From Tubulanus polymorphus (taxonomy: Eukaryota > Nemertea > Palaeonemertea > Tubulaniformes > Tubulanidae): a DNA stretch of 64,000 nt. Below, piece after piece: positions 23,925 through 38,900 of this stretch. Every line of letters begins with the position of its first letter. Positions within the stretch are counted from its first letter, which is position 1. The stretch covers positions 186,001 through 250,000 of the forward strand of contig NC_134030.1 of assembly GCF_964204645.1 (NCBI RefSeq), given 5' to 3'. Made by a program: the position numbers and the translations under genes. Below the pieces are notes generated by a model that did not search any database, was not told the DNA's origin, and was given only the letters and a program-made list of their open reading frames with translations.

Positions 23925-26900
23925 ATGGCTTCCTCTACTCAGAATACCGGATCGTGGCCGATCATCGTTCATAAATCCATATCAGATCACGAAATTACCA
24001 AAATCCTCGCTGAAAAACGGCATAATATCAAAGGTAAGCTGTAGGCCTGCCGATATCACTTTGTGTGGTTGTTGTTGGCCCCGGGGAACGTGTACTGTAA
24101 CCTTGCCACAAAACCACAACCCTCCCTCCAACTTACCCCACCCAGAGCCAGGGCAGAGGCCCATCAAGTATCTCAGTTCCTCCATTGTCACGAGCGGAAT
24201 CCTCGATTGCCACAGGAGATTGCAGAAAGGTGAACATGAATTCAAATTGGTTTGTAAATAATCGAACTGCAGTAAATGAAGCAATTACAAGATGTTAAAA
24301 CATTCTTAGAACGAGCCTGCAAACTGTGTATAACTATAGTATCGATCGGTTCCTTGCATTTGAACACTGCTTCTCCTAAAAAGTGATACTGATTCCATTT
24401 AAAGATAAAACAAGAAGTAACACATACGTAACCCAATCTAATGATGCGTTCAGCCTCAATCGCTTCACAAACCTCAGAGTTTGAATAATCTGTATCAGTG
24501 ACACAGGACGACTTCACAATAACTGTATTTTGTACTCTAACTGCCTGAGACGTGACAACCATCTGGAGCTCGCAATTTCAGCTCTTTATCATAATTACGT
24601 CATTGAAGTAGTTATGTATAGTAAACTGTCAATGCGGTGATCTCTTATCTTAAATTATACAGTCTTCGGCTCTGGTTTTTTAATGGGTTGGTTCTTATTG
24701 TTCCAGTTGGCGACGGAATTGCATTAATTTAACAAGTTGTTCATCTCTCACAGATCTTCAGTAAAATAATCAGTGACGTGTCACATTGACAAAAAATAAA
24801 AATCACCCTCGATGGGATTCGAACCCACAGCCTCTGAATTAGAAGTCCAGCGCGCTATCCGTTGCGCCACGAGGGCTGGTTATTTGTCATATTAAACATT
24901 AAAATCATAATTTCATAAATAATACTCGCATTAATGAATTCCTGTACTAAATTACATTGGCATGATAAATCGTCGTAATTTAATTCAAACGGCTTACAGT
25001 ATTGATTTATTAGTTCCATGTTTATCCGCCGGAAGTTAGTGTTGCGTCATACCGCCTGCACCTGGTTCCAGTACGATTGTCAGGAACATTTTCAGAAATG
25101 CTGTAAAATCCTCACTTTTCAGGCGCGGAATCACAATTTGTATTTTCAATACAGTTAAACTGATAATTAGTAAACAGTTTACTAAGTATCAGTCGTCATT
25201 TAATGAACTAGAGTCATCAATTTTATGATTGCCACGTATATATATATATATATATATATATATATATATATATATATATATATATATATATATATATATA
25301 TATATATATATATATATATATATATATATATATATATATATAACTACATGTACAAAGGCGACCATGTATTGATTGTATACATGTATAATGGAATTGGAGA
25401 TGAACTCATCATGATGAAAGAATCAGAATAATTGAGTGAAATAATGTTTATTTCTCGGATCTAAAATGACATCACTGTCCGAAAATTATTCGATAGAAAG
25501 ATTAATGAAAGATAGAGTTTGAACCGGCACCCGACGCGTTCACAGTGGTTCTAACAGCCACATACGAATACGAATATTTATTTACATCCGCCTGGAGCTG
25601 AACACCATCTTTTAACAACTTTACGAACTAATCTCGCGTTCTCTTCCTCTTGCTGCCCGGCTGCAGTTGCTGCGGCACAGAACGACGCCAACATCAATCC
25701 CAGTGAAAGTCCCAATTTATACAAATAACCTACAAATATTCATCACACATTTTAATATCAATCAATCAGTCAGTTTTATATTCTAAACACAATTTAATAC
25801 TTTTTACCAGAATTTTCCAGTAAGTCAACAGCATTCTCAAGTAAAGAGTATATTAGTAGAGGAGGCGGTGATGAGACGTTTACTAATTCTCATAGAACAT
25901 CTTCAAAATATATACTCAGAATACCAAAACAGACATTATATCTTCATTTAACAGTTAGCTCTTTGGGATTTTGTACTGTTAAACCAGAAATTCATGTACG
26001 AGTTTTTTTGTCGAATTTAAACGAACGGATAGTATGAATATTACGGGCTAGAGATTGAAGATATAACTTACTAATCATTGTGTTTCAACGTGGTTTTTCT
26101 AAAACCTGGAAAAATGAAACAGATAAATTATATACATGTCACTTCGATAGAAGTTACAGAGCGTGAATCTCAATCGAGTGGTGAACATTAATGTCGATGT
26201 ATGAATATAATCAGCCTCTTAGTTTTCTCTGCCCCGCGTATTGTGTGGACGATCCCCTGAGTTCCTTACTGCTCCAATAATCCTTTGATGTTTCTATTTA
26301 TATATTAAATTGGTTTTTTGCTTTTCATCGTTTGGATCTTGGTTTTCCAAGATTTCAACCCCTATTTGATTATTCAATGCCCAATAAACTCGTAACTATT
26401 GTCACATGCTTAATTAATGTCTGATGAACTTTATTGATGTCGTGAAAGTTCGGCTAATTCGGTAAAAAAATTATGGTCCAAATAAAAATGAGTTAGGCGG
26501 AGTGTTCTGTACATTTAACTAGATTGTAAAAGATTTTTGACGGGAAACATTTTTGACAGAAAATCTCTAGAGGGTTGGACGTGCCCGAGGTCCTACCCCG
26601 TGGCTCAGCACCAGGACGTGCCCGAGGTCCTACGCCGTGGCTCAGCACCAGGACGTGCCTGAGGCCCTACCCCGTGGCTCAGCACCAGGACGTGCCTGAG
26701 GCCCTACCCCGTGGCTCAGCACCAGGACGTGCCCGAGTTCCTACCCCGTTACTCAGCACCAGGACGTGCCCGAGGCCCTACCCCGTGGCTCAGCACCAGG
26801 ACGTGCCCGAGGTCCTACCCCGTGGATAAGCACCTCGGAGACCCACTTCCTAAAAAAGCACCAGTTAAATTATGTAAAATAATCTAATATCTACACGATT

Positions 26901-35900: not shown

Positions 35901-38900
35901 GGTGTTGTGACTGGTGACCTGTGACTGGTGGTACTGTATCTGTATCTGTCTGTATCTGTTATTAGGCTGATTGTGGTCGCTATGAGGCGGTCAGGTGATT
36001 TTCCTATCCTAACGCATTCAATCAATAAACAGGGAGTGGATCATCGTAGCATCCTAAATGTAAAAAATATAATGACACGTCAAATAACAGTCATTTTCTA
36101 TCTGTTCAAATCGATTTGGAACTCAACTAAAAGTGCTTGAAAATGTTCTCCTGAATAAACAAAACGTTCTGCTTTGTGAGATCTAATTACGATTTCTGTT
36201 TGAAAAACATCAAACCGAACGTGGACGATTTCATATTGACAGATTGACTGGACCTGCAGCACATCACATACCCGCACACAGTTCCGCATCCAGTAAGTTA
36301 TCATTATTATGAGTATGATGATTTTCTTTATTTTTTTTTTTTTAATATAATATTGTCATCATGTTGTAGTCGCAAATCATCTAGATGTTTATCTGGAGAT
36401 TTTGCTGTGAAATTGTAAAAATCATTAAATCACCAATTTTACCATTCAACCCTTGGGCCAAGTTTCACTAAAAGGAATAACTCGTAAATAGATTAATATT
36501 AAGCAGAACTGGTGATTGTATTTAACATTTTTGGGTGATTTTCACTCATTTGTTTTGTTTCACGTTGAATTCAGCAAAACCTTCCGTTTTACGTGAACTT
36601 TATCATCTCGACGTGGAATTAAAGCGCTTAACAAATGATGTAACCATTAATTCTCATTTTTCGTATATATTTTTCGATGTCTTTCACGTCAATTTTGCGT
36701 AATTTGTAGTATTTTGTATTTGTTTGATATTCTATGTATTTTTACAGGTTTTAGAAACCGTCAGGCGTTGGATGAACGATGATCAGTAAGTCCGACATTT
36801 AATCAAAATGTATTTTTCTATGTATTCGTATTCGCCGTTGTCGTCATAACCATTCATGAAATACTGCGATTGTGTATTTCTAGGTGAGTTGAATATATTC
36901 ACAGTTTCGCTGTGCGGTATTTTTATGTTAATTTGGGCCGCGGCAGCTGATGCAGCTACCGATGAAGCTAGAGAAAGTGAAGCTGCCGGTGAAAGGTTGA
37001 TTCGTGGAATCAGTAAAAGATGTAAAGCTACTGGAGGATGTGGCTCTTAAAATTAAAGATATTTGCAGAAGGTTCCTGCTGCTGGTAGTTGGGCTATGAT
37101 TATTTACTCTTCATCTATTTTACGCGGCTTTTAAAACAGCCCGATTATTTCCAAGGTTCGCAAACCTAACCACAATATCCTGTATACAATCTATCACAGC
37201 AAATCTTCATGTTTTCATCTGATGTTTTCAATTGAATAAATTAATTCTCGTAATAGAAAATCTGAATTATTGTAATGACTAAATCATGAATAAAATGTTA
37301 CGTCATTTAGTGACGATCTTTTGTTTTTTTACTAAGTATCGGTATAGTCCTCGGTATCGCCAAAGTTGACTGCGGATTTTGATGTAATGTCTTATTTCAA
37401 CTTGACTTGAGAGCACACCACGTGGCCTAACTCAGTCAGTTCTGATGGTATATACCTGATAAAAGTCTTCTTAGGACCAGAAAGGAATGGAAACAGTTGA
37501 CCTTAAACATTGTTTTTTAATAATTTCAAACTATAGTGAAGGATAATGCAAAAAGTCTTCATTGAATGGGGCTGTATTATAACAATATGTTTCCACGATG
37601 CGTACCAAACTTCAGGCAGGCATCAACAGTAGTGCTTTCACATTGGGAAAAAATAATAAATTAACCTCGATGGGATTCGAAGTTACAGCCTCTGATTCGA
37701 TGTCCAGCGCACTATCCATTGCGCCACGAGGGCTAGATGTTCAGGTCGTTACACATTGTAAATATGATTTTATACTTAACACACGCATTAATGAATCTCA
37801 GATCTAATAATCGTAATTTAGTTCAAACGGTTAACAGCAACGGAGCAGACCACTGTGATAAGTTTATATTCTATTTGCATTATCGGAGCACACCGCTACT
37901 GAACACTTTATATTCTATTTTCAGTGTCGGAGCACACCGCTGTGAATAGTTTTATATTTCCTCTATCGAAGATGGCGTTTATGCTAGTTCCGGTAACGAC
38001 TGTAAGACAAGAACAATGGAGGCAGACAACACTTCGACAACTGTAGGTTAAACCTGACTGAATTCATCTATATTCCACACAGTAAGCAACGAATATATGT
38101 TTGATTATTATTGTTTCAGTATTGATAAATTCATTGAAGTTCACGGTCACTGTTATCTGCTCGTCATGTCGTCCGTGTTCGAACAAGAAGAACTGGACTC
38201 GTTGACCCAGTTACAGGACACGTATATGACGTCACGCGTTAGATTTTTACCAGTTCACAATTCACAGGAAGCCGTTGCGTGTATGACAAATATAGCAAAG
38301 GTATTATCTATTATAAGTTTGACATTTTCGAAATCGACGAAAAATAAATGGCGTACCAGATACGACTTAAAATTCTTATGTCACATGTTACATGTTTACC
38401 ATCCATGTTACATGTTACATCGGTTATGATTTTTGTTATTTTCGAAAGTAACTCATCAGTTTGGAAGAATTATTTTGATCACTACATCATAGTGATTATA
38501 GTGATTAGTTTAATAGAATTGTTATGTTCTATAGGTGACGTGTAAACCCGTGTGTAAAACGTTACAACACAGAATGGCGCAGCTGAAAAAACTAGCGCTT
38601 TCTAATAAACATCACGCGCCAACTGTTGCTGCTCTTGAACTAACCGGAATCTCAAATAGTCATATCCTTTTTTCTTTTAACATCTTTCGATGTTTTGTGT
38701 AGGCCTTTACATATATACCTTGATCTGTTCCTTCAATAATTCATCAGCTCGAGAATGAAATACACAGATTATGTCCCGATAAAGCCCATGACGAAACACG
38801 TGACCCCGTGTGTTGTGACGATTATGTAGATTTCAACATTTGCGCGAAAGAAATAGACCGAATCATGGAGTTCATCCATGCGCAAGTCTATAAATTTTTT

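Follow-up and report, generated by a model that had tools for sequence, protein, structure and literature searches.

We analysed a 64,000-nucleotide stretch of the nemertean Tubulanus polymorphus genome (the window, meaning this whole stretch, which is 186001-250000 of the contig that we call C6), in which four small genes, A to D, encode putative secreted peptide precursors. These genes belong to a family of at least 57 candidate loci on 12 contigs of the same assembly (C2 to C10, C12, C25 and C55), and from the sequences we hold it almost certain that the family and its architecture are real. By the same comparisons, the conserved part is the delivery module, the leader, and not the C-x-A-x-GGC ring in which the four window precursors end. 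Our best reading overall, to which we give an even chance, is that the genes make secreted peptides that are processed, mostly have a single disulfide and diversify in the manner of conopeptides. If this is true, the family would add a new library of small cyclic peptides to those known in nature, one made of tiny two-cysteine loops that are near-neutral and marked by a distinctive start exon. It could then be used to test whether libraries of this kind diversify by selection on tails or by gene conversion of leaders.

The precursor family and its start exon

The exons of the four window genes are as follows.

25578..25729, minus strand: exon 3 of gene A, from translation and acceptor; signal-like leader, acidic spacer, RLVRKVVKR, tail WCSAPGGCK, stop; family profile E 2.8e-8
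26072..26105, minus strand: exon 2 of gene A, from GTTTTAG to ATGATTA, then donor GTAAGT; it holds the start codon
29715..29785, plus strand: putative non-coding exon 1 of gene B, from sequence and the B-C alignment; start arbitrary, donor CCA then GTAAGT
30543..30580, plus strand: exon 2 of gene B, ending ATGATCA, then the GTAAGT donor
30679..30845, plus strand: exon 3 of gene B; signal-like leader, spacer, tail CKATGGCGS, stop; family profile E 1.1e-11
33181..33332, minus strand: exon 3 of gene D, the block copy of A; family profile E 2.6e-9
33910..33943, minus strand: exon 2 of gene D, from sequence
36748..36785, plus strand: exon 2 of gene C, the block copy of B, from sequence
36884..37050, plus strand: exon 3 of gene C, tail CKATGGCGS; family profile E 9.3e-12

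Genes A (26105-25578) and D (33943-33181), both on the minus strand, have WCSAPGGC tails, and genes B (30543-30845) and C (36748-37050), both on the plus strand, have CKATGGCGS tails. In each gene, a small exon ends in ATG-AT(T/C)-A and is followed by a GTAAGT donor, and all of the remaining coding sequence lies in a second coding exon. The pattern ATGATNAGTAAGT has exactly four matches in the 64-kb window, all at the starts of these genes, with a chance expectation of 0.02, and KR.?C.A.GGC, sought in a six-frame translation of the window, is also found exactly four times, only at the same genes. The A-type and B-type proteins match each other within the window at E ~4e-5. The original prediction of four small precursors was borne out, all four translating as described, and GT/AG is present in the sequence at the coding splice borders 26072/25729, 30580/30679, 33910/33332 and 36785/36884. 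In the B-C alignment, the donor at 29785, which closes the putative exon 1 of gene B, recurs in copy C.

The genome searched was the window's own assembly (267.8 Mb, 77 contigs), and since only the best candidates of the protein searches were scored, the family counts are lower bounds. A COX1 query had no match in this assembly. The densest cluster, on contig C7, has nine genes within about 28 kb. On contig C8, five closely similar copies (L033-L036 and L030) lie across 1.4 Mb (2.39-3.81 Mb); their dispersal looks recent and may have come about via segmental duplication. The frame is open from the acceptor through the leader to the tail in 56 of the 57 loci, the searches themselves favouring open copies, and L030 has an early stop. 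After five near-identical copies were dropped, the analysis set comprised 51 members.

A family profile was built from 31 members, with all window genes excluded. The scripts had placed the same start codons before every member, and a strict profile was used from which the first three residues were removed. With this strict profile, the four window genes scored E 9e-12 to 3e-8 and the best of 2697 decoys E 0.37; 20 of the 21 further members outside the profile scored E 8e-5 or better, and L047_326 failed (E 59). With the first residues kept, the set comprised 2757 sequences and the window genes scored E 4e-14 to 5e-11; the four decoys that scored best with this full profile proved to be frames of the window genes themselves, and the best true decoy had E 0.06.

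In the 950 bases before the acceptor, ATGATNA followed by GTRAG was found in 20 of the 51 members, 16 of them among the 47 that lie outside the window; neither control, downstream or antisense, had a single case in its 51. A looser pattern was found in 31 members, versus three and none in the controls. In the 31 members in which the stricter pattern was not seen, intron 2 may exceed the DNA examined. The exon 2 sequences are mostly preceded by a T-rich acceptor. The start exon is support for the family that is independent of the leader profile, and the claim of small secreted precursors with common exon borders is supported genome-wide as well as in the window.

These results also bear on whether the loci are non-functional duplicates or non-coding repeats with frames open by chance, which we find hardly credible. 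Several near-identical copies (L033-L036; L029, L031 and L039) and the early stop in L030 would agree with it, but the open frames from leader to tail in all loci except one, even in searches that favour them, the protein-level conservation of the leader, the cysteine pair in 43/51 members and the start-exon motif, absent from the controls, speak against it.

All 51 members have a hydrophobic core of 11 residues (mean Kyte-Doolittle 1.6 or more) somewhere in residues 4-26, and an R-x-x-R/K or dibasic pair precedes the tail in 50/51, both counts having no chance control. The basic site is R-x-x-R in 43/51 members, with RL[IV]R in 16 and RVAR in six. By plurality, the leader reads MISELFKFVVPLCGIFVSIWAMAAADEEKE...LERLIR, in which the opening residues are the prefix added by the scripts. 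The predicted tails have 5-26 residues (median 13) and are rich in Gly, Cys, Ser, Asn and Pro; their net charge, which depends on cleavage at the predicted site, has a median of 0 and is +3 or more in 4/50. Ten of the 51 tails end in Gly, which makes amidation conceivable. The tail has at least two cysteines in 43 members, one in a single member and none in seven. In those 43, the cysteines are separated by 5 (17 members), 6 (11), 4 (8), 7 (3), 3 (2), 9 (1) and 11 (1) residues. Examples of tails are GPPDCGGTGCSG, RCVSSGSNCSNSS, EWCANRNCGS, GGGSMCASTNCCG and YCDPWTCC, and there are 50 distinct 12-residue C-terminal ends among the 51 members. Mean pairwise identity was 0.41 in the signal columns without the script-added start (0.46 with it), 0.38 in the spacer columns, 0.25 in all tail columns and 0.115 in the non-cysteine tail columns. 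By sequence, this is a family with a start exon, a conserved leader, a variable tail and a cysteine pair.

The ring, proposed before as the defining feature, does not hold that place, C.A.GGC being confined to the four window genes among the 51 members. Nor does Lys-Arg before the ring serve as a signature: it is not family-wide, and KR.?C was found in eight members, four of them window genes. The proposed RL[IV]R site exists, and it is a minority form of the R-x-x-R site given above. The statement that the ring is kept while the rest diverges is right for A-type versus B-type genes and for A versus D, whereas in the wider family the leader is conserved and the tail varies.

Change in the tails

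The 11 paralogue pairs compared outside the window differ non-synonymously at 62 of 322 tail sites and 49 of 953 leader sites (p 6e-13), a rate about four times higher in the tails. In four chosen, little-diverged pairs, the bases that differ numbered 30/144 in the tails, 59/1138 in the adjacent intron, 14/458 in the leader and 70/697 downstream (tail versus intron, p 3e-9; tail versus downstream, p 6e-4); these four pairs were hand-picked from seven with intron divergence below 8 percent. By these comparisons, selection for tail diversity is likely in part of the family, although they do not separate it from leader gene conversion or tail misalignment.

A number of results weigh against such selection and against conopeptide-like diversification in general. 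The family was found outward from window gene B, and its members were thus chosen for leader similarity. In the same 11 pairs, synonymous differences were also more frequent in tails (27/88) than in leaders (24/275; p 2e-6), an excess that may come from leader gene conversion, locally raised mutation or tail misalignment. The pooled pN/pS was 0.62 in tails, and 2.15 in the spacer on few silent changes. In five close-paralogue pairs, the tails had 27/151 non-synonymous versus 3/41 synonymous differences, which is not significant (one-sided p 0.07; a sum totalled by hand with one gene entered twice). No difference between tail and leader change was seen in the two window pairs (p 0.41). The three other little-diverged pairs have no tail excess (L029/L031, 0/18; L033/L036, 0/54; window B/C, 1/42), and among five more diverged pairs the tail changed more than the intron in L006/L008 only, three showing no such excess and A/D not being split. 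The downstream DNA is more diverged than the intron DNA. In addition, 8/51 members have fewer than two tail cysteines, and the spacer with its basic site has a median net charge of 0, so that "acidic" fits its first part only. Over the 150 coding bases that run up to the ring, A and D differ at 13; of these changes 11 are non-synonymous and 2 synonymous, and every one falls in codons 11-40, so the leader and spacer changed and the ring did not, as might be expected of a hormone. B and C have three coding differences (2 non-synonymous, 1 synonymous). Ring constancy within A/D and B/C is weak evidence, because each pair arose by block duplication.

Candidate functions and known systems

In the mechanism that we propose, the start codon of the conserved leader would lie in the tiny ATG-ATN-A exon, and exon 3 would add a signal-like hydrophobic core, then an acidic stretch and a basic site that is R-x-x-R in most members. 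This leader would deliver and then release the short tail of 5-26 predicted residues, which one disulfide would close in most cases; that a short peptide, mostly with a single disulfide, is released is quite probable. With members differing in the tail, one leader and processing route could carry many small loops to different outside targets, as in disulfide-poor conopeptides. We infer secretion, cleavage, the disulfide bond, the exocrine role and the targets from the precursors, and we propose exocrine effectors in venom, mucus or a defensive secretion. An exocrine, toxin-like role is favoured because the near-neutral tails speak against membrane-active antimicrobials and the many different tails against a hormone; we put it tentatively and with modest confidence, from sequence, at a little under an even chance. 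Somewhat improbable, in our judgement, is the full picture of an undescribed, independently evolved arsenal of more than 50 hypervariable, mostly single-disulfide peptides, built on one leader exon and used against other organisms, with the window gene pair as a sub-lineage with a fixed ring.

A conserved leader with hypervariable tips is how cone snails and frogs make peptide libraries. Disulfide-poor conopeptides are described with a conserved signal and spacer, basic cleavage, a short hypervariable mature peptide, large families and some single-disulfide members (PMC5100318, PMC3862624, PMC10501145). The present family is like the conotoxin superfamilies in its conserved signal and spacer, basic cleavage, short hypervariable C-terminal peptide and large number of genes. 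In eight of nine conotoxin superfamilies studied, three exons are described as corresponding roughly to the signal, spacer and mature regions (PMC3862624), whereas here exon 2 holds little beyond the start codon and the single exon 3 holds signal, spacer and tail. A Pfam scan of 15 members found nothing below E 0.1, conotoxin domains included, the individual superfamily signals not being compared. The DREPs, or doppelganger toxins, are described as secreted, with basic processing sites and some single-disulfide members, in molluscs and annelids; the account gives five families across mollusc and annelid classes with conserved architecture, and Triangle peptides of 59-65 residues (PMC10501145). 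Those are several conserved families, in contrast to one hypervariable expansion here, a distinction drawn from the published descriptions.

It is unlikely that the precursors yield endogenous neuropeptides or hormones, with the window ring as the ligand of a CCAP-like receptor and the other members as paralogues with other receptors. CCAP, the closest of the named rings, is PFCNAFTGC-amide, and the spacing of the window ring and part of its motif match it (PMC5100318). The likeness to CCAP and its cone-snail relatives, the conoCAPs, lies in the single C-x5-C ring, the small residues and the GC closure; basic processing sites are described as typical of signalling peptides (PMC10501145), the A-D ring is constant while leader and spacer change, and the Gly-ending tails noted above could be amidated. 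However, WCSAPGGC and CKATGGC are without the N after C and without the aromatic residue of CCAP, having K or S for N and T or P for F, and the rest of the family is without the ring. An amidation signal consists of a C-terminal Gly and basic residues, and it is absent in the window tails, which end CK, CGC or CGS, then stop. We therefore did not assign the window genes to CCAP. More than 50 paralogues with nearly all tails different, and a single predicted peptide per precursor, also speak against hormones. Within the family, it is the window genes, whose ring is fixed, that look most like hormone genes.

Host-defence (antimicrobial) peptides, with a conserved leader and a hypervariable effector as in frog skin peptides and mussel myticalins, are likewise a rather doubtful alternative. 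Myticalins are described as a multigene family with a conserved signal, a hypervariable mature region and an exon 1 consisting of 5' untranslated region only (PMC5577615), which is close to the leader-effector logic found here. Myticalins differ in being linear and cationic and in having an anionic extension after the mature part, whereas here the tails are near-neutral, C-terminal and mostly have two cysteines. In frogs, the preprodermaseptin/brevinin precursors have an acidic spacer, a dibasic site and a C-terminal ring, with a long amphipathic cationic helix before the ring. Their signal peptide is reportedly conserved and the effector hypermutable (Vanhoye, 2003). The present family has the conserved signal and variable effector in common with them, but the frog system is vertebrate, and the charge here does not support a cationic helix. 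The Rana box of frog peptides is cationic with a C-terminal ring, and the ...GGC C-terminus, if left uncleaved, would likewise be cationic and carry such a ring. Yet the segment concerned shifts its charge between copies (K to E from A to D; R to G from B to C), which together with the neutral tails disfavours a cationic Rana-box peptide. Given the predicted cleavage, the mostly uncharged tails do not have the net positive charge of cationic antimicrobial peptides.

We consider it quite unlikely that the family serves recognition between individuals or gametes (pheromones or sperm-egg signals) and was diversified by coevolution. Fast-changing small secreted peptides, partly in tandem clusters, would fit such a role, but no sequence relative and nothing specific points to it.

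In the protein database, the four window precursors and six family members gave 74 and 202 candidates, respectively, none at E 10 or better, and animals are thinly covered there. As a gauge of this coverage, six protein-database matches, one from a named animal, were returned for the Hint exon of the hedgehog gene in this window. The absence of protein-database relatives is weak evidence, because the Hint exon itself got few matches. Among PDB sequences, gene B had no match at E 10, and a six-member alignment had six matches, the best at E 0.13. In open-access papers, supplementary files lying outside the search, the tail strings were unmatched and the signal and tail strings together matched only the six-letter SIWAMA; a broader literature search returned analogues at most. 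Within these searches, which cover animals poorly, the family is likely undescribed. The earlier impression of novelty is thus not contradicted, with the qualification that the C-x5-C spacing and part of the motif occur in the named hormone CCAP, to which the genes do not belong.

The duplicated block and its neighbourhood

By self-comparison, the window set is two divergent genes duplicated once as a block, bounded as follows.

24791..31170, no strand: block 1 (tRNA-Arg, gene A, gene B), in which a transposon-like element breaks the sequence
32583..37369, no strand: block 2 (tRNA-Arg, gene D, gene C)
24804-24876 and 32596-32668: two tRNA-Arg (TCT) genes with equal scores, marking the borders of the blocks
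about 37640-37800: degenerate third tRNA-like copy, also marking a block border

The four gene copies claimed in the original prediction are real, but only two of them are independent, A/B and D/C being copies of one block duplicated in tandem. Seven stretches, mostly non-coding, were compared between the block copies, and six of them diverge by 2-5 percent; in the 3' part of intron 2, A and D diverge by 17.5 percent, counted over 120 aligned bases in an alignment with gaps. In a tree of the leader only (42 columns), A/D cluster with two chromosome-C9 genes (support 0.92) and B/C are placed elsewhere with low support. Because this tree separates A/D from B/C, the ring they have in common may stem from conversion between neighbours, though the tree is too weak to use. 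Compared with D, the frame of gene A closes with 24 extra bases (25560-25583), together with which K-stop stands in place of GC-stop, and by eye the end TGTGGCT(C/G)TTAA is common to B, C and D. Because A's K-stop goes with the extra bases and the other three share this end, the older window tail probably ended GGCG(C/S).

Two related elements, at 27590-28663 and 31168-32304, have about 74 percent DNA identity over 247 bases and are both flanked by near-perfect inverted repeats of 103-156 bases; we take them to be Penelope-like. The first has a GIY-YIG frame at 27705-28235 (Pfam E 1.4e-6). One lies within block 1 and the other between the blocks, and none of these inverted repeats was listed in the interior of block 2.

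The peptide genes are flanked by the following genes.

21127-21840: AAR2
38058-38429: exon of a SPO16 homologue
40973-50432: hedgehog exons (signal and Hint)

In window positions 1-17000, similar minus-strand reading frames (FSEFSIFSL...FRMFKSFVTEGCLTRRIEYD) repeat with a strong AT skew, like a long repeat array. Elsewhere on the window's own contig, at 5.318-5.635 Mb of C6 (L051-L059 and L062), ten Hox-type homeodomains, presumably Hox1-5, Lox5, Antp, Lox4, Lox2 and Post2, a set that would probably mark its bearer as a lophotrochozoan, lie on a single strand in an apparently intact cluster.

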